Assembly: GCA_022843305.1 (NCBI GenBank)
Contig: JALHNX010000036.1
Coordinates: forward strand, 1-35,199
From: Pyrinomonadaceae bacterium
GTDB lineage: Bacteria > Acidobacteriota > Blastocatellia > Pyrinomonadales > Pyrinomonadaceae
Length of the DNA: 35,199 bases
Reading direction: 5' to 3'
Part shown: positions 1,383 through 26,024 of the stretch, piece by piece
How the letters are laid out: the number at the start of each line of letters is the position of its first letter
Numbering within the stretch: the stretch's first letter is position 1
The notes under the pieces: model-generated
Database searches by the model: none
Told to the model about the DNA's origin: nothing
Seen by the model: only the letters and a program-made list of their open reading frames with translations
Translations under genes and position numbers: made by a program

Positions 1383-4097
1383 ATGAGTGAAGAACTAATC
1401 TCAAAAGGCTTAACAAACAACGGCGTAAAGATAGGAAACTACGAGTTTTATCCTATCGGCAATACGACTCTCAACCAGCTAAAAAAATACAAAATAATTC
1501 CGAGCCGCGATTATAAAGAATACGGAAAACGTGCGCCTGACGCTCTGCTTGTAGATAGAAGAAACAAAAACAGAATCAAAGTTATTCTCGTTATCGAGCA
1601 TAAAGATTTGGGTAAATTCACCTCACAATCGGACAAGACTATTACCGCCCAACAATGCAATGATTTATGCCAAGAATTGAAAGCCGATGTCGGTATCGCA
1701 ACCGATGGCAACAGTTTTGTTTGGATAAATCCTAACGAGCCGGACATTACCAACGAATATAACGATAGGACGACAAGCAAAAAGCGTAGCTACACAATCG
1801 TAAAAAATTCTAACGGAACTGATTTTATAAAAGAGTTTGTCGTTGACCAAAAAACAGATGAATTGGAAGTTACAAAACTGAATGTAAGGACTAGAGAAAG
1901 TCTTGGCAATCTGGAATTGATTAGGAAAAGCGTGTCGGCGGGAAATTCACAGATAGTCGAGGAAACGACTATTGATCCGTCAAGTTTAGCCAAACAGATT
2001 TGGCAAGATGTTTGGTCTGTTAGCGGAGCAACGCCTGAAAAGTGTCTTTATACTTTTGTCGAGTTATTTATTTTTAAGTATCTCAGCGATTTAGATATTC
2101 TTAACGAGGACGATAAGGGCAATAAAATAAATTTCAAACATATTTATTCTCTTTCGCCGGACGTAGCTTTTAAAAACTATTCTTATAACGTGCGCGAATA
2201 TCTTAAAACAATGTTCCCGCCCGATTCTTACGATAACACTACAATCATAAACGGAACGGTCTTAAATCCCGAAGTGCCGGAACATAGCAACGTCTTTTAT
2301 AAAATCTTGAAGAAGTTTGACGACTTCGGGGAAATGAAAAATATTGACCCAAGTTTTAAGTCAAAAGTTTTCGAGAACTTTATGAAGGAAAGTATCAGCA
2401 AGAAAAATTGGGGACAATACTTTACCCCAAGAAATATTGTTGATGCCGTAATTGAGATTTCGGATATTGAAAAACTACCCGAAGGCGCGGAAATTTGCGA
2501 TTGCGCTTGCGGGGTCGGCGGATTTATTTTAGAGCCGATGAGAGTTAAAGCCGATGGCGTTAATTTCTATTATCAGGTAAAAGGCGATGACATAAAATCA
2601 CGTTACAATTTTCACGGATTTGACAAAGGCTTTGAAAAAGAAGAACAACTTACGATTATTTTGGCAAAAGCAAATATGCTGATTTTCGTTTCCGAATTGT
2701 TAAAGAATAATCCGACAATTTCACACGAATTTTCCAGATTGTTCAATTCTACTTTCAAACTGTTAAGCAAGACAATTCTCGGAACACTTGCCCAAACTGA
2801 AAAAGACCGATACGACCTGATTTTTACAAATCCGCCATACGTTACTTCTGGAAGCAGTAATTATAAGGATGCCATTAAAAATGACAGCACGTTAAAGGAA
2901 TTTTACAAAATTAACGCTATCGGCGTTGAAGGCTTGTTTTTGGAATGGATTATTCGCAGTTTGAAACCTTCCGCAAAAGCCTTTGTTATTATTCCCGATG
3001 GCATCCTAAACAGACCGAAAGATGAAAGACTCCGAGCTTTCATCAAAGACGAGTGTATTATTGATGGAATTATCTCATTACCGAGCAACGCTTTTTACAC
3101 TACGCCGAAAAAGACCTATATTCTGGCAATTACAAAAAAATCAGGAAAAAGCGAAATTGAAAGAAAAGAACAAATTCAAACCGAGCCTGTTTTTACATAT
3201 TTAGCCAGCAATATCGGCGAAACTTTAGATGTTAATAGATTTCCGATTCCCGAAAATGATTTAACGGAAATGGTTAGCCTGTTTAATCAATTCAAAGGCG
3301 CGAAAAGCAGTTTTGAGCCTATTGGCAAGAATAGATGTAAAATTCAGCCGATAGACTTATTCATTCCCAAAGAACGCTGGTCTGTTGATAGATGGTGGAG
3401 TAAAGACGAGCGTGTCGAATTAGGGGTTGAAGAAAAAACCATCATTTTGACTTTAGACGAGTTCAAAGAAAAGGTTCAGGATACATCGGAAAAAATGAAG
3501 GAATTGCTCTCTATTGAAATGGCACTTCCCAAAAATGTTATAACCAAGACTGCTGGTGAAATTTTTGACTTCACACAAAAAATGAATAAAACGAGCTTCA
3601 CAAAAGCATTTGTCAACAAAAACAAAGGCGATATTCCCGTTTACAGCGCGTCTAAAAACCCTGATGAAGTCGGTTACGGTTATGTTCGGGATAATATCGA
3701 AGGCGTTCAATATTTTGAAGATATTTTGACTTGGAATGTGGATGGCTCAGTCGGCAAGGCATTTTTCAGACGAGGTAGATTTACGTTATCGGAAAAAGTT
3801 TTCCCTTTGATTTTGCTTGATGAATGGAAGGGTCTTCTCGACCACGACTACTTAAAAGTTGTGTTAGAGAAGAGAGCAATCGAAGCGGGTTTTACTTTTA
3901 CCAACAAAGCCGGAAAAATCTACCTGAAAGATATAGTCATTGAAATTCCTGTTGACGAAACCGGACAAGTTGATTTGAAAAAGCAACAGGAAATAGCAAA
4001 CGAGCATAAACGGCTTGACCTGATTAAAAAGCAACTAAGCGAAAATTTAGAAGATATTTTTGGAGTCGAAATAGATTTCCAAGAAGTTAAAGCCTAG
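1383..4097 (+). CDS. Fused restriction-modification protein (PD-(D/E)xK nuclease, N6-adenine methyltransferase, specificity domain), Type IIG-like
   Basis: The 904-residue single chain combines three functions. Residues 1-170 resemble a type I restriction-subunit N-terminal nuclease, with P52-D53 followed by E72-H-K74 as the PD-(D/E)xK pattern. Residues about 330-690 form an HsdM-like N6-adenine methyltransferase: FTPR at 347-350, the SAM-binding CACGVGG at 374-380, HGFD near 411-414, and catalytic NPPY at 483-486. From about 718 to the end lies one type I-like target-recognition domain followed by a helical stretch (DLKKQQEIANEHKRLDLIKK). The protein would methylate adenine in its own target and cut unmethylated DNA. 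No separate HsdS or HsdR is adjacent. With all motifs intact it is probably active. Alternatives are a methylation-only protein or a subunit with a distant partner. Base composition is AT-rich compared with the phage genes, consistent with accessory cargo. Confidence 0.85.
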   Translation: MSEELISKGLTNNGVKIGNYEFYPIGNTTLNQLKKYKIIPSRDYKEYGKRAPDALLVDRRNKNRIKVILVIEHKDLGKFTSQSDKTITAQQCNDLCQELKADVGIATDGNSFVWINPNEPDITNEYNDRTTSKKRSYTIVKNSNGTDFIKEFVVDQKTDELEVTKLNVRTRESLGNLELIRKSVSAGNSQIVEETTIDPSSLAKQIWQDVWSVSGATPEKCLYTFVELFIFKYLSDLDILNEDDKGNKINFKHIYSLSPDVAFKNYSYNVREYLKTMFPPDSYDNTTIINGTVLNPEVPEHSNVFYKILKKFDDFGEMKNIDPSFKSKVFENFMKESISKKNWGQYFTPRNIVDAVIEISDIEKLPEGAEICDCACGVGGFILEPMRVKADGVNFYYQVKGDDIKSRYNFHGFDKGFEKEEQLTIILAKANMLIFVSELLKNNPTISHEFSRLFNSTFKLLSKTILGTLAQTEKDRYDLIFTNPPYVTSGSSNYKDAIKNDSTLKEFYKINAIGVEGLFLEWIIRSLKPSAKAFVIIPDGILNRPKDERLRAFIKDECIIDGIISLPSNAFYTTPKKTYILAITKKSGKSEIERKEQIQTEPVFTYLASNIGETLDVNRFPIPENDLTEMVSLFNQFKGAKSSFEPIGKNRCKIQPIDLFIPKERWSVDRWWSKDERVELGVEEKTIILTLDEFKEKVQDTSEKMKELLSIEMALPKNVITKTAGEIFDFTQKMNKTSFTKAFVNKNKGDIPVYSASKNPDEVGYGYVRDNIEGVQYFEDILTWNVDGSVGKAFFRRGRFTLSEKVFPLILLDEWKGLLDHDYLKVVLEKRAIEAGFTFTNKAGKIYLKDIVIEIPVDETGQVDLKKQQEIANEHKRLDLIKKQLSENLEDIFGVEIDFQEVKA

Positions 4098-7025: not shown

Positions 7026-7616
7026 ATGGCTCAGAAGAAACTTAAACCACAGCACCAGATAATCGTTGAAGAAGTGGCGAAAGGTAAAACTCAGCGCGAG
7101 GCTTATCTTAAAGCGTATCCACAAGCGTCAGTCAAGACCGCCGACGTGAACGCTTCAAAACTACTAAGTTCCGCTAAGTTTTCAGAGGCTTTGCAGAACC
7201 GCATCAATCGCGCATTATCTCACCACCAAGTTACACCCGAAGAGGTTATCGGTTCGGCGGTTTTTAATATGCGAGCGTCAATGGATGACCTGATAGATGA
7301 AGAAGGTTTTTTTGATTTAACAAAAGCCAGAGAAACAGGTGCGATAGATTTAATAAAAGAAATCGAGTTTGTTCAAACTGTTGATTTGGAAACAAATGAA
7401 AAAATTGTTAAACACAAGGTTAAATTTGAATCACCTGCCGCCGCCCGTAAAGAAGTAGCTAATTACATCGAGGTTGAAAAAGCACCGAAACCGCCTGACA
7501 ATAATGCGGACATCGCCCGCAGATTGTTGGAAAAAGCGTTAGAAAACGGCGCACCGCGAGATGAAGCCGTCAAATATATAGTTTCTTTGGGATATAGCGA
7601 AAATGCCTTTGGATAG
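7026..7616 (+). CDS. terS: Terminase small subunit
   Basis: The 196-residue protein has an N-terminal DNA-binding helical domain (IIVEEVAKGKTQREAYLKAY, then ASKLLSSAKFSEAL) typical of the Terminase_2 family of phage small terminases. These recognise the packaging site and load the large terminase. A central helical oligomerisation region (about 65-150) and a charged C-terminus that probably contacts the large subunit follow. The last 14 bases overlap the large-subunit gene, the usual coupling of terS and terL. Start choice: ATG at 7026, three bases after the previous stop, with no obvious Shine-Dalgarno sequence, so coupled re-initiation is likely. Confidence 0.88.
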   Translation: MAQKKLKPQHQIIVEEVAKGKTQREAYLKAYPQASVKTADVNASKLLSSAKFSEALQNRINRALSHHQVTPEEVIGSAVFNMRASMDDLIDEEGFFDLTKARETGAIDLIKEIEFVQTVDLETNEKIVKHKVKFESPAAARKEVANYIEVEKAPKPPDNNADIARRLLEKALENGAPRDEAVKYIVSLGYSENAFG

Positions 7617-12862: not shown

Positions 12863-13276
12863 ATGGGAACATATATACTAATCGGCGGTAGTAAGGACGG
12901 CAAATTTTGGTCAGTTCCAGATAGAGATGCGGAGTTGCGGTTTCCTGTTTATGAACCGACTAAAATAACGGACAATCCGGGCAAGTCGGTCAGTTTCAAA
13001 ACAGAATCGTATTTTCTTGAGCCGATGGCGACAAAAACAACGACCTATTGGTTTTACAGGCACGAATCTTTAACGCTTGATGGCGCATTGGTAAAATTGT
13101 TGAAGGACTATTCGCCTAATAACCAAATAGCTTTTGATTTAGATGTTTTGCTTGATGATGTTCAGAACCGGATTACTTTCGATAATGCACACATCGGACG
13201 GTTTAATGATGAATTATCTAAAAGAGTGCGTGATATGCGACAAAAATTACTTGAAGTTATCGTAGAAATAGTTTAG
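12863..13276 (+). CDS. Hypothetical phage protein, AT-rich insert-like gene
   Basis: The 137-residue protein begins MGTYILIGGSKDGKFWSVPD. This opening resembles small phage proteins whose N-terminus reads like GGPxDG and a VPD; such proteins have no known function. The rest is mixed beta then helix, ending in LLEVIVEIV. GGAGAG precedes the start. Codon use is clearly more A+T-rich than the flanking portal and scaffold-like genes. It is followed directly by a hairpin pair and terminator, as expected for an independently acquired phage moron. No separate promoter is visible, so it probably depends on the operon. Confidence 0.65.
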   Translation: MGTYILIGGSKDGKFWSVPDRDAELRFPVYEPTKITDNPGKSVSFKTESYFLEPMATKTTTYWFYRHESLTLDGALVKLLKDYSPNNQIAFDLDVLLDDVQNRITFDNAHIGRFNDELSKRVRDMRQKLLEVIVEIV

Positions 13277-13320: not shown

Positions 13321-13339
13321 GCGGAAATTAGATTTCCGC
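13321..13339 (+). other. TTAGA-loop hairpin A1
   Basis: GCGGAAA (13321-13327) and TTTCCGC (13333-13339) form a perfect 7-bp stem around the loop TTAGA. It has no T-run of its own. It lies 6 bases before a second, larger hairpin with the same apex. The same two-hairpin arrangement recurs near 25.4 kb. Whether it works as RNA or DNA is not known. Confidence 0.75.
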
Positions 13340-13345
13340 ACCGAG

Positions 13346-13400
13346 AAGGCTTGAATGAGGAAAGAATTAGATTCTTTCTTGATTCAAGCCTTTTTGTTTT
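13346..13400 (+). terminator. Two-tier hairpin A2 with TTAGA apex and T-run
   Basis: The outer 11-bp stem pairs AAGGCTTGAAT (13346-13356) with ATTCAAGCCTT (13382-13392). A 3x3 internal loop separates it from an inner 7-bp stem, GAAAGAA (13360-13366) and TTCTTTC (13372-13378), around the loop TTAGA. TTTTTGTTTT follows. This looks like an intrinsic terminator or attenuator between the AT-rich gene and the scaffold-like gene. The remaining leader to 13440 contains a small CCGTG/CACGG stem (13414-13431). Confidence 0.8.
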
Positions 13401-13440
13401 GCTCGAAACCGTCCCGTGCGGTCAATCACGGCGTAAAAAT

Positions 13441-14709
13441 ATGAGTAAAGAAATTGAGAGAGAGCCTTTCGACGTTACGGAAGAATCTTTCGACGCGATA
13501 TTAAACGACGTAGAAGCGGAGTCCGACACGCCGCCGGAGGAGTCGTCGCCTTTAGATGAAAGTGTTGAGCTAACCGATGCGGTCGAAAGTGAAGCGGATG
13601 AAACCATCGTGGTCGAAACCGAAGAACCCGAAACTGCCGAAGACCCTGATAAAACCGAAGAAGAAACAGAACCTGAAAAGGTCGAAGAAGCCAGAGAAGC
13701 TGAAAAGCCCGATTCCGAACTGCTCGTTGAAAAGGACGGCAAAACGTATGATTTCACGTCCGCGCCCAAAGAAATGCGCGAGGTCGTCAAATCACAAAAC
13801 CGTCTTGTTAATGCTTTTGTGAGAGATAACATCGAAGCGGTGCAAACCGAACTGAGAAATCTCTCGCCGTCGTCTTACGAAAAACTCGAACAGACGATAA
13901 TCAACAAAAGCGCGACGGTTCATCCTGATAAATGGTCGGAGTTTCTGGTTACAAACAATCCGAAAATCGTGATGAATGCTCTGCTCGCACCATTCGCCGA
14001 CCCGACCGACGCGGACGGACTTAAAGATGCCGACCCGAAGCTGATCGCCGAACTTTACCGCGTTTTCCGCGAGGAAAGCGAAGAAGGTGAGGAATTACGG
14101 ACGCTTCTGGAACTCCGCAGTCCTGAATTCGGCGCGAACCCGCTACCGAAACTGACTCCGGCTGAAAAGGCGGAACTCGAAGAGCTAAGGCGCGAAAAAC
14201 AGCAGCAGTCCGCCGGCGACACGACTAAAGAAACTCAAAAAGTTTACGAGGAAGTGTTCGATTATGTGGACACGGCGACGATTATGCCGATTGTCAAGCA
14301 ATTCGGGTTGATGCCCGAAGCGTCCGACTCGCCCGAAGTGACCCGCGAAAAACGCCGCGTCGTCAATTCGCTGGCAGGCATTATTGACACCGCCTTACAG
14401 GAAGACCCGTCAACCGCCGATGACTACAGGGCACTGCTCGTTAAAATCGAAGCCCGCGACAAAGCGGGAGCGATGGCGATACTTCCCGCCTTGCAGCAGA
14501 AGATGGAAGAGGAAGCTATTTCATATTTGAGTTTTATCAAGAATTCGCAGACCGCATCTCTGAAACAAAAACACACAGCGGCTAAAAAACCGCCGACCGC
14601 CCTTGCCGCCGCAGGAAGCATCGTCCCGCCCGTTTCAAAGCCTGTGACTTTAGCAGAACGCCTCGAAACGCAGTCGGATGAAGATTTCTTACGCGCAATG
14701 GGCATTTAA
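13441..14709 (+). CDS. Acidic capsid-assembly (scaffold-like) protein
   Basis: The 422-residue protein lies directly upstream of the major capsid gene, the usual position of a phage scaffolding protein that shapes the procapsid and then leaves. Residues 1-110 are extremely rich in Glu and Asp, with many TEEPE-like repeats. The rest is mainly helical and charged, with a basic C-terminal region (about 385-400, LKQKHTAAKKPP) of the kind that contacts capsid subunits. I reject the open frame's earlier ATG at 13351 because it lies in the terminator hairpin. The ATG at 13441 gives MSKEIEREPFDV, although the Shine-Dalgarno signal is weak. It ends 9 bases before the capsid start. Scaffold function is inferred from position and composition. 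Confidence 0.72.
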   Translation: MSKEIEREPFDVTEESFDAILNDVEAESDTPPEESSPLDESVELTDAVESEADETIVVETEEPETAEDPDKTEEETEPEKVEEAREAEKPDSELLVEKDGKTYDFTSAPKEMREVVKSQNRLVNAFVRDNIEAVQTELRNLSPSSYEKLEQTIINKSATVHPDKWSEFLVTNNPKIVMNALLAPFADPTDADGLKDADPKLIAELYRVFREESEEGEELRTLLELRSPEFGANPLPKLTPAEKAELEELRREKQQQSAGDTTKETQKVYEEVFDYVDTATIMPIVKQFGLMPEASDSPEVTREKRRVVNSLAGIIDTALQEDPSTADDYRALLVKIEARDKAGAMAILPALQQKMEEEAISYLSFIKNSQTASLKQKHTAAKKPPTALAAAGSIVPPVSKPVTLAERLETQSDEDFLRAMGI

Positions 14710-14718
14710 AGGAGATAT

Positions 14719-16014
14719 ATGGCAGAAGTTTCAACCCTGACAGCGTTAAACACGCTGATCCACAAACAATTTTCAAAGGACGTTATCACGACGCTCGACC
14801 AGAGCGCGGTAATGTTCAACTGGATGAAGACCGTTGAGAGTGAAAAACTCAACAGTCAGGGGAAATCGTTCCCCGTCCAAATTGATCGCGGCGGTTCGAT
14901 TAAAGGCGCGGCGGAATACGACGATTTTCCCGATGCCGTCGCCCCGTCCTACGACGACTGGCTTCCGCAGTTACGATACGTTCTTTCAACAGGTGCGTTC
15001 TCGCACCGCGCCTTAATTCAAAACGGAATCTCGGGCGTGAACGGCACGAAATCCATCATCGGCATCGGCAAGGAACTCGGACAACGAATTCAGGATGAAT
15101 ACGAAAGTTGGATCAAACGGCTTTCGGCGGCGTGTTACCGCGACGGCAAGGGCAAGATTTCATCCGCCATCACCGCCGTTACGACCGGCGCGGCGGGAAC
15201 TTTCACGGTTGACCCGGCAACGGCAGATTATTTCGTTGATTTATTTTCAATCGGTCTGCCTATCGAGTTCCGCACGGGCGGCGGCACGGTTCACAACCAG
15301 TCCGGCGCAGACCCGGTTTCAATCGTCACGGCGGTCAACCGCGATACCGGAGTCGTGACCTGCGACAACATCCCGACCGATGCCGCAATCGGCGATTTCC
15401 CCGTCTATTCCGGTTCGTGGGATTTATTCCCGCACGGGTTCGAGTCGAACATTCAGAATCAGGACACGACCGTTAATGGTCTGGACGTAACGGGGCTTTC
15501 GCAGCTCAAATCATTGGTTCAAAGCCGGTCTGGACGCGCTTTTTCGATCAAGGACATTAACCTTGCGAACATCCGCGCAATGCGTTTCGGCGGCGTGAAC
15601 AACAAACTGACCGATTACGCCTTTTTTATGAATCCGACGCTTTACAACTCGGCTTTGAACGAAGCCTACGACCAAAGCACGATTCAGACGGGCGCAAACA
15701 ATCGCGGCAAAGTTGATTTGCTCTACGATTCTTATGAAATCGGCGGTCAGCGTGTTTATCTGGACAACGACGCGCCGCGCCGCCAACTTATCGCCTTGAA
15801 GAAATCCACCTGGAGATTCTTCTACGCGATGAAGCCGGGTCTGGTCAAAACCGGCACGAACGACGAATATTTAGTCCTTCAAAACGCCGTTTCGGGAGTC
15901 GGTCACAGAACCGGATACAACTTCTATATGGCGGCGGACTACAACATAATGACGCTCAATCCGGCGGCGAACTACCGCCTGCCTGAATACGACATTTCCG
16001 ATACTTACTTTTAA
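14719..16014 (+). CDS. Major capsid protein, HK97-fold type
   Basis: The 431-residue protein begins MAEVSTLTALNTLIHKQF and has a strong AAGGAGATAT ribosome binding site, as expected for the most abundant virion protein. An N-terminal helical arm (about 1-40), a segment with KSFPVQIDRGGSIKG, and a central region of alternating helices and beta strands match uncleaved HK97-like capsids of podoviruses. The region PHGFESNIQNQDTTVNGLDV and the C-terminal NAVSGVGHRTGYNFYMAAD suit the P and A domains. No protease gene is adjacent, consistent with a separate scaffold. It is followed by a strong hairpin before the next gene. Confidence 0.85.
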   Translation: MAEVSTLTALNTLIHKQFSKDVITTLDQSAVMFNWMKTVESEKLNSQGKSFPVQIDRGGSIKGAAEYDDFPDAVAPSYDDWLPQLRYVLSTGAFSHRALIQNGISGVNGTKSIIGIGKELGQRIQDEYESWIKRLSAACYRDGKGKISSAITAVTTGAAGTFTVDPATADYFVDLFSIGLPIEFRTGGGTVHNQSGADPVSIVTAVNRDTGVVTCDNIPTDAAIGDFPVYSGSWDLFPHGFESNIQNQDTTVNGLDVTGLSQLKSLVQSRSGRAFSIKDINLANIRAMRFGGVNNKLTDYAFFMNPTLYNSALNEAYDQSTIQTGANNRGKVDLLYDSYEIGGQRVYLDNDAPRRQLIALKKSTWRFFYAMKPGLVKTGTNDEYLVLQNAVSGVGHRTGYNFYMAADYNIMTLNPAANYRLPEYDISDTYF

Positions 16015-16029
16015 TTAACCGATGGGTGA

Positions 16030-16067
16030 GATGAGTCAGGAAATTCCTGACTCATCCTTTCATCTTT
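16030..16067 (+). terminator. Long perfect hairpin after the capsid gene, attenuator-like
   Basis: GATGAGTCAGGAA (16030-16042) is the exact reverse complement of TTCCTGACTCATC (16044-16056), giving a stem of 12 or more pairs around a tiny loop. CTTTCATCTTT follows, a poor T-run. It probably reduces rather than abolishes transcription into later genes, or stabilises the capsid mRNA 3' end. The next gene's AAGGAG lies just downstream. Confidence 0.7.
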
Positions 16068-24551: not shown

Positions 24552-24772
24552 TGAGTGAAGAAATAGAAGACTTACATATTTCGGATGATAGCGTTTTGGT
24601 GTGGCAGGAAACCAACAAAGGGCGTATGATTCCGTTTGTCTGGTTATTTTGCGCTAAACCGAATTGCAAAAACCGCACCTATCGGGTTGTCGGTTCAAAA
24701 TTCTGCTATCCGCATACACACAAGGATTTTATTGAGCAGATGTTGAAAAACATCGCACTCGAAAAGGTATGA
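24551..24772 (+). CDS. Small zinc-finger-like protein, 73 aa
   Basis: It begins MSEEIEDLHISDDSV at a TAATG overlap with the Hint-domain gene. C34, C39, C52 and H55 (FCAKPNCKN and GSKFCYPH) make a plausible zinc site resembling the CCCH finger ending the 17315 gene. It ends in a helix (FIEQMLKNIALEKV). A short AAAGG just before its end serves the next gene. Its location next to a Hint-domain tail protein is suggestive but its function is unknown. Confidence 0.6.
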   Translation: MSEEIEDLHISDDSVLVWQETNKGRMIPFVWLFCAKPNCKNRTYRVVGSKFCYPHTHKDFIEQMLKNIALEKV

Positions 24773-25125
24773 TTAAACTTCTGCCGCCGAGATTCTGGCA
24801 TCAATTAGAAGACATCTTCCAAGACGAGTTCGATTCGGACTTGCCGGACGTTAATTCCGATGCCGAGATATTTATGTCGGCGAACGATGGCAAGCGGACG
24901 GGCTTTATCCTTGTCGAACCCGTCAAGATGATCGGTCAGATTTACATCTATCCCGAATTCAGAGAGCAGAATGTTGCTAAAAACGCCGGAGAAATGGTAA
25001 AGTTTATGCAGAAACGCTACGACGGAACGCCCGTCGGGTGCGTCGCATCAGAACCGAGATTCGAGAAACTGTATCGTCGGCTCGGAATGGAGAAGATAGA
25101 CGGCGTGTTTTACAGAAAGAATTGA
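24769..25125 (+). CDS. GNAT-type acetyltransferase-like protein
   Basis: The 118-residue protein has the strand-helix pattern of the GNAT fold: beta strands with FILVEP and IGQIYIYPEFREQN, the acetyl-CoA pyrophosphate-binding position NVAKNAGEMVKFM (degenerate for the classic Q/RxxGxG/A), and a C-terminal block SEPRFEKLYRRLGMEKIDG typical of the family's last helix and strand. Phages often carry such single-domain acetyltransferases near their tail genes, and the substrate is usually unknown. An ATGA overlap couples it to the preceding gene. Confidence 0.7.
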   Translation: MIKLLPPRFWHQLEDIFQDEFDSDLPDVNSDAEIFMSANDGKRTGFILVEPVKMIGQIYIYPEFREQNVAKNAGEMVKFMQKRYDGTPVGCVASEPRFEKLYRRLGMEKIDGVFYRKN

Positions 25126-25127
25126 TT

Positions 25128-25280
25128 ATGAAATTAACGGACAGAATAAATTTATTGTTTCCTGTGGTTCGATTTAAGCCGACCGAAACAGTTAAATCTC
25201 TCAGTCAGAAAGTGTCCGCAAGTTTTGATAAGTGGTTGAAAACGAATTTAGAAACTTTGTTCAATCACAGAAAGAATTAG
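25128..25280 (+). CDS. Hypothetical small basic protein, 50 aa
   Basis: It begins MKLTDRINLLFPVVRFKP, with a helix-like remainder (KSLSQKVSASFDKWLKTNLETLF). I chose the ATG at 25128, two bases after the preceding stop, rather than an upstream in-frame ATG inside the acetyltransferase gene. Its TAG stop is immediately followed by the first base of the tRNA. Low GC and small size leave some doubt about coding. It could be a peptide whose translation clears the tRNA 5' end. Confidence 0.5.
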   Translation: MKLTDRINLLFPVVRFKPTETVKSLSQKVSASFDKWLKTNLETLFNHRKN

Positions 25281-25356
25281 AGTTGCGTAGTGTCAACGGT
25301 CAGCACGGCGGTCTCCAAAACCGCAGGTTAGGGTTCAAATCCCTACGCACTTGCCA
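25281..25356 (+). tRNA. tRNA-Trp (anticodon CCA), phage-encoded
   Basis: The 76-base gene folds into a complete cloverleaf. The acceptor AGTTGCG pairs with CGCACTT, with one T25283/C25350 mismatch and one G-T pair. The D arm is GTGT/GCAC with GG in the loop. The anticodon arm is GCGGT-CTCCAAA-ACCGC, with anticodon CCA at 25115+200 to 25117+200, i.e. 25315-25317. The T arm is TAGGG-TTCAAAT-CCCTA. The discriminator is G25353, and CCA is encoded at 25354-25356. It starts on the base after the preceding TAG stop, so it is probably cut from the late polycistronic transcript. It probably supplements tryptophan decoding. Confidence 0.92.
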
Positions 25357-25375: not shown

Positions 25376-25394
25376 ACGTAAATTAGATTTACGT
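25376..25394 (+). other. TTAGA-loop hairpin B1
   Basis: ACGTAAA (25376-25382) and TTTACGT (25388-25394) form a perfect 7-bp stem around TTAGA, as in the hairpin at 13321. It lies 19 bases downstream of the tRNA and 9 bases before the larger hairpin. The stem sequence differs from the other copies while pairing is kept. Confidence 0.75.
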
Positions 25395-25403
25395 TCATCA
25401 AGG

Positions 25404-25449
25404 CTCATTCGAGAAGTGAATTAGATTCACTTTGCGAATGAGTTTTTTT
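25404..25449 (+). terminator. Two-tier hairpin B2 with TTAGA apex and strong T-run
   Basis: The outer 8-bp stem pairs CTCATTCG (25404-25411) with CGAATGAG (25435-25442). A 2x2 internal loop separates it from an inner 7-bp stem, AAGTGAA and TTCACTT, around TTAGA. Seven T residues follow (25443-25449). It looks like a full-strength intrinsic terminator after the tRNA. The next gene's TTAGGAG lies just beyond, with no obvious promoter between, so read-through or antitermination would be needed. Confidence 0.85.
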
Positions 25450-25466
25450 CGTTTTAGGAGATAAAA

Positions 25467-26024
25467 ATGGGGTCAAGTCGCGGCAAACAAAAAGAGAATA
25501 AAGCCGAAGCGAGAGTAGATCAGGCTTACGCGGAATATAAACCGTCGCCGCTTGAGGAAATGCGGACAAAACGCACGATGAAGTTCTTACAGGACTTCGA
25601 GGGAGGTAAAGATGTCAAGGACATCGAAGCCCTGAGTCCTTATCTTAATCTCTTTAACAACGCAAAAAACTCGCAATCTAATCAGATGGTCGGGCGCGGC
25701 GCGGTCGCACTGGCGAATCCGGGCGCGGCAAATCAAGTGTCAGACCTCGACAAATACGTTCAGGCACAGCGCGAACAGGACGCATCGGGGATGCTCTACA
25801 ACGCCGCGAATGAAGGCTATCAGGATGCCGTCAGCGAATCCGGTGCGCTGATGAATATGGATCAGCAAAGGAAAGCAGGGCGGTTAGGATTCGCCAATCA
25901 GCAATATCACACGGTTATGAACCGCCCCCAGAGGATTCCTTTATGGGAAAGATTGCTAAAAATAGGCGCGTCGGCGGGAACGTCAATCGCATCGGGCGGA
26001 ATGGGCGGCGGCGGAGTCGGTTAA
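25467..26024 (+). CDS. Putative ejection (internal virion) protein
   Basis: The 185-residue protein begins MGSSRGKQKENKAEARVDQAY with a good TTAGGAG site. It is polar and alanine/glutamine-rich with long helical stretches (LDKYVQAQREQDASGMLYNAA). It ends in a hydrophobic, glycine-rich tail (LLKIGASAGTSIASGG). Small internal virion proteins of T7-like phages have comparable size and a membrane-active glycine-rich element. Two larger candidates for ejection proteins lie downstream. The call is by composition and context only. Confidence 0.55.
   Translation: MGSSRGKQKENKAEARVDQAYAEYKPSPLEEMRTKRTMKFLQDFEGGKDVKDIEALSPYLNLFNNAKNSQSNQMVGRGAVALANPGAANQVSDLDKYVQAQREQDASGMLYNAANEGYQDAVSESGALMNMDQQRKAGRLGFANQQYHTVMNRPQRIPLWERLLKIGASAGTSIASGGMGGGGVG

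Follow-up and report, generated by a model that had tools for sequence, protein, structure and literature searches.

Rho-independent terminators have been predicted between the late-gene clusters of phage SPP1 (PMC6316719), and accessory gene units in phage genomes are known as morons (PMC6316719). Phages also make use of hairpins such as that of lambda nut/boxB, which is bound by N (PMC3526286), while HK022 put, present in two copies, is a two-hairpin RNA (PMC9378689). The stretch of DNA analysed here (the window, 35,199 nucleotides of a 5.7 Mb Pyrinomonadaceae genome in 322 contigs) carries two elements, A and B, which share features with each of these. As in SPP1, an intergenic hairpin with a U tract delimits late-gene clusters, but here it comes with an extra upstream hairpin, a defect in mid-stem and four identical loops. 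As with morons, small AT-rich genes and tRNAs lie beside the terminators between core genes, although here a terminator remains even at sites with other accessory genes or none. Lambda boxB, a short hairpin with a loop recognised by a phage-specific protein, offers a comparison of possible workings only, since boxB lies outside the terminator and its loop sequence differs. With put, finally, the elements share a length of about 70 nt, two stem-loops and the presence of two similar copies in one phage genome, but put is found downstream of early promoters, where it counteracts terminators, whereas here hairpin 2 runs into a U tract in the structural region; on location and on this U tract, the elements do not belong with put. 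In our judgement, A and B are probably intrinsic terminators with an accessory upstream hairpin, fixed at two boundaries of the structural region, where they would insulate the variable accessory-gene slots while allowing partial readthrough.

Both copies follow one plan in the same register: a first hairpin, a spacer, a two-tier hairpin and a U tract (Table 1). The initial annotation had described this layout at 25376-25449, and hairpin, spacer, two-tier stem and seven T residues are found there as claimed, downstream of a tRNA-Trp gene at 25281-25356; the corresponding arrangement in copy A spans 13321-13395. Hairpin 2 of copy B has a folding energy of -21.5 kcal/mol. Upstream of copy A is a portal-like block; downstream come a scaffold-like gene and then the gene for the major head protein, with the portal and scaffold roles assigned from position and size. 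The order upstream of copy B is GNAT-like gene, short ORF, tRNA-Trp. AT-rich genes do precede both copies, with 39% GC before A and 34% before B (25128-25280), in a structural region of about 52%. The virion genes said to lie downstream are apparent after A, where scaffold-like and head genes come next, but not after B, where the next gene has no known family, as searches of Pfam and PHROG returned no match.

Table 1. Features at and around the two elements (window coordinates)
Feature	Position	Strand	Remarks
AT-rich gene before copy A, 39% GC	12863-13276	+	without tblastn match in the relative loci compared
Copy A, hairpin 1, GCGGAAATTAGATTTCCGC	13321-13339	+	UUAGA loop
Copy A, hairpin 2, two-tier terminator	13345-13393	+	UUAGA loop; -28.2 kcal/mol
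Copy A, U tract	13391-13395	+	T tract of hairpin 2
Possible H-type pseudoknot, leader 3' of terminator A	13408-13431	+	S1 ACCG/CGGU, S2 CCGUG/CACGG
Scaffold-like gene directly after terminator A	13441-14709	+	role suggested by position before the capsid gene
Major head protein gene	14719-16014	+	phrog_14242, E 3.6e-10
GNAT acetyltransferase-like gene upstream of copy B	24769-25125	+	two relatives have one too
tRNA-Trp (CCA), accessory	25281-25356	+	missing from the G002 and G100 regions read
Copy B, hairpin 1, ACGTAAATTAGATTTACGT	25376-25394	+	7-bp stem, UUAGA loop; can be extended to a UAG triloop
Copy B, hairpin 2, two-tier terminator stem	25403-25443	+	9-bp outer stem, 1x1 defect, inner UUAGA-loop stem
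Copy B, outer stem, 5' arm GCTCATTCG	25403-25411	+	pairs with CGAATGAGT, 25435-25443
Copy B, inner hairpin AAGTGAATTAGATTCACTT	25414-25432	+	within the outer stem
Copy B, U tract, T x7	25443-25449	+	read from sequence
AGGAG, likely to be the ribosome-binding site for the gene after B	25456-25460	+	few nt 3' of the U tract; from sequence
Gene directly 3' of terminator B	25467-26024	+	conserved in relatives (37-38% and 31% identity)

The core shared by these hairpins, AATTAGATT, is present in the window in exactly four copies, always on the plus strand and always within them, where 0.40 occurrences are expected. Of the six pentaloop hairpins in the window with perfect Watson-Crick stems of 7 bp or longer, four have a TTAGA loop, and the window contains no further TTAGA-loop stem of at least 4 bp; 200 dinucleotide shuffles, scored for stems of 6 bp or longer, never gave the same pentaloop more than twice. 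Fold z-scores were -7.48 for A and -5.95 for B. All 25 scored base pairs form in both copies, 10 of them with both sides changed, a count drawn from these two sequences; sliding the pairing partners by one to three columns as a control brought the paired fraction down to 26-53%. As every pair is kept, ten of them through two-sided changes, we take the RNA structure to be real, and the comparison of the copies provides strong evidence for structure at the RNA level with constrained loops. Loop and closing pairs thus agree between A and B, as the initial annotation had stated, and the stems of the four UUAGA hairpins covary; its statement that the stem bases differ at most positions overstates the difference between the copies, given that 47 of 82 alignment columns are identical.

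Conservation was followed in two phage or prophage regions of same-family genomes (G002 and G100) and in the viral contig L262; a further fragment, G086, ends short of both sites. Virion proteins of these relatives are about 30-49% identical to those of the source phage, with gene order kept. The head protein search led to G002, a genome of the same genus (38% identity, same gene order), and as a single query against viral contigs and phage records the same protein found no relative; a profile of the 597-residue tail-region protein led to L262 (49% identity) and to a more distant copy in G100. Strong terminators stand at both syntenic positions in all three. Site A reads AAAGCCGAACCG...CGGTTCGGCTTTTTTT in G002, AAAGCCAG...CTGGCTTTTTTC in L262 and AGGCTGTGATGAGCAGAGG...CCTCTGTTGATCACAGCCTTTTTT in G100, while site B is AAAGCCGAACGATGAAAAATCGTTCGGCTTTTT in G002, a 14-18 bp hairpin with T7 in L262 and a bulged hairpin with T5 in G100. 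None of these terminators, at either site, has a TTAGA loop, indicating that UUAGA is not needed for the conserved function. At both sites of the four phages, a stable hairpin runs into a U tract, as characterises intrinsic terminators, and its place between transcription units is conserved. The long, internally mismatched stems, which recur at much the same place in several phages, could also be RNase III-type processing hairpins that make mRNA 5' and 3' ends without terminating transcription; such processing does not require a U tract, however, and one follows the hairpin at all eight sites, which makes this reading improbable.

What varies is the surroundings. Between terminator B and the homologue of the following gene lie one or two small genes in G100 and L262; in G100 this homologue was assigned by position and weak resemblance. 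The relatives differ in their flanking accessory genes and tRNAs, so the terminators stay at the boundaries while small genes vary on either side. This bears on the initial suggestion that the element marks where genes were added and might travel with the AT-rich genes. Both boundaries are indeed variable gene slots, and AT-rich genes precede both copies, but the three relatives keep a terminator at the boundary with different inserts or none, and theirs are ordinary, non-TTAGA terminators beside the same flanking genes, the very finding that the initial annotation had named as speaking against its proposal; the element is thus no part of the insert, and we consider boundary marks that move with inserted genes highly improbable. 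In L262 the accessory slot before site A contains an ORF (867-1478) that, by its sequence, may encode an ECF sigma factor; it also contains a tRNA-Ser (TGA) at 1696-1782.

The likeness of A and B could also have arisen by intragenomic copying, with recent duplication or conversion making the loops alike by descent rather than by selection. Similarity between A and B is among the highest of all pairs in two phages (z of 8.4 in the source phage and 11.1 in G002), and the two align gap-free over the whole terminator hairpin; in G002 they are mutual best matches through the outer stem and not the loop. However, copying of whole elements leaves unexplained why hairpins 1 and 2 of a single element share the nine bases of AATTAGATT, the ten two-sided stem changes around intact loops point to constraint, and neither L262 nor G100 shows similarity between A and B. 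We therefore hold copying to be unlikely. The best guess is instead selection for recognition of the loop, since it is the stems that diverged and the loop with its closing pairs that stayed the same.

An upstream hairpin is not confined to the source phage. When the 50 nt before each terminator were folded and compared with shuffles, the eight sites together gave a combined p of 2.7e-5, with p at or below 0.05 singly in four of the eight; 4 of 30 host terminators fell below 0.05 in the same test. When 285 kb of host DNA was surveyed more strictly, requiring an upstream hairpin of 7 bp or more no further than 40 nt away, 2 of 31 terminators qualified. A covariance model trained on A and B alone matched site A of G100 along the entire element (34.1 bits, E 6e-4) and site A of L262 weakly (E 3.4); a search of 162 genomes from the class, with stricter filters and a cut-off of E 0.001, yielded no other copy. 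Support for the tandem plan is therefore good in the source phage and at site A of G100, and moderate at the other sites. Upstream of terminator B of G100 lies ACGTAATTTAGATTAC (about 1664-1680 of L267), which is near the hairpin-1 core of the source phage and may be a chance occurrence.

The loop was also sought elsewhere. In Rfam, at gathering score, the tRNA was the sole match, and the elements fit no described family. Searches for paired AATTAGATT across viral and bacterial contigs yielded, among the matches listed, almost exclusively chance occurrences in AT-rich coding sequence. One candidate pair of hairpins (L024) was rejected, as it has no U tract and an unrelated neighbourhood, and the matches in L155, from a Lachnospiraceae genome, look like an operator array of TTCCTNAGGAA in which TTAGA is the spacer; there, at 7120-7234, TTCCTNAGGAA palindromes with five-base spacers precede a response-regulator gene. 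The host genome contains AATTAGATT 66 times, compared with 27 for a reversed control. None of 22 host occurrences checked had a stem of six extra pairs, and the sampled host terminators used no TTAGA loops. Within the window itself, a possible operator is seen at 1189-1227, where a perfect 16-bp inverted repeat with its arms 7 nt apart coincides with the beginning of a minus-strand ORF (869-1225) that looks like a helix-turn-helix regulator; a 904-aa ORF (1383-4097), with an NPPY motif and 37.6% GC in a contig of 50% GC, may by its sequence be a DNA methylase.

Terminator B ends 17 nt before the start codon of the next gene, leaving no room for a promoter, and so strong a terminator at this distance would seem counter-productive without readthrough or antitermination. 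The UUAGA loops could belong to an antitermination system, either by binding a phage-coded factor, in the manner of lambda N and boxB, or as an RNA-only device like HK022 put, with the terminators overridden when due. The four UUAGA loops do provide what a nut site would have, a boxB-like hairpin with a loop that is constant within the phage while the stems covary; the loops of the relatives differ, as expected if each phage had one factor of its own, and the missing space for a promoter before the gene after B fits as well. Unlike in nut or put sites, however, the loops also lie inside the terminator hairpins, and the relatives have no matched loops between A and B. On balance, we regard a link to antitermination as unlikely, to about the same degree as copying. 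The more specific proposal that UUAGA in both hairpins forms a paired site for a phage-coded RNA-binding factor, which would switch between late stop and readthrough with a loop code particular to each phage, is still more doubtful. No kissing-loop partner was found in the simple sense, AATTAGATT being present in the window on the plus strand only.

The leader between terminator A and the scaffold start codon could form an H-type pseudoknot in all four phages, with sequences that are all different (13408-13431 in the source sequence; about 18555-18590 in L259, 2097-2135 in L262 and 8490-8550 in L266). The stems would be ACCCG/CGGGU with UGCA/UGCA in G002 and UCCC/GGGA with CUGUC/GACAG in L262; the G100 version is longer and has a rival nested fold. 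Among 300 shuffles, 18 were as good for the source phage, 3 for G002, 4 for L262 and none for G100, by a score that counts stacks only and with loop-length limits set after the pattern had been seen. We treat the pseudoknot as a lead; it would give the scaffold/capsid message a structured leader. Further along, directly 3' of the major head protein gene, a perfect 13-bp inverted repeat (16030-16056) forms a hairpin followed by a T-rich stretch.

If A and B are terminators, as we think probable, A would form the boundary between the portal block and the scaffold-capsid genes, and B that between the tail-acetyltransferase block and the next conserved gene. At each, the two-tier hairpin and U tract would release most RNA polymerase arriving from upstream, including that from accessory genes and tRNAs in the slots, and the fraction that reads through, or is antiterminated, would transcribe the genes 3' of the terminators. 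It is plausible, judging from their position directly before scaffold and capsid and before a conserved structural-region gene, that the elements set the relative expression of virion genes. As the leading guess, the UUAGA loop of all four hairpins may be recognised by a factor that is specific to the phage and binds or processes RNA. If the loops are not recognised, these are ordinary terminators with an odd sequence habit; if they are, they would represent an undescribed control of late termination. Terminators that stay fixed across phages with proteins only about 30-49% identical suggest that late genes in these phages, whose bacterial hosts are uncultured, are expressed in a punctuated manner, rather than as one long transcript.
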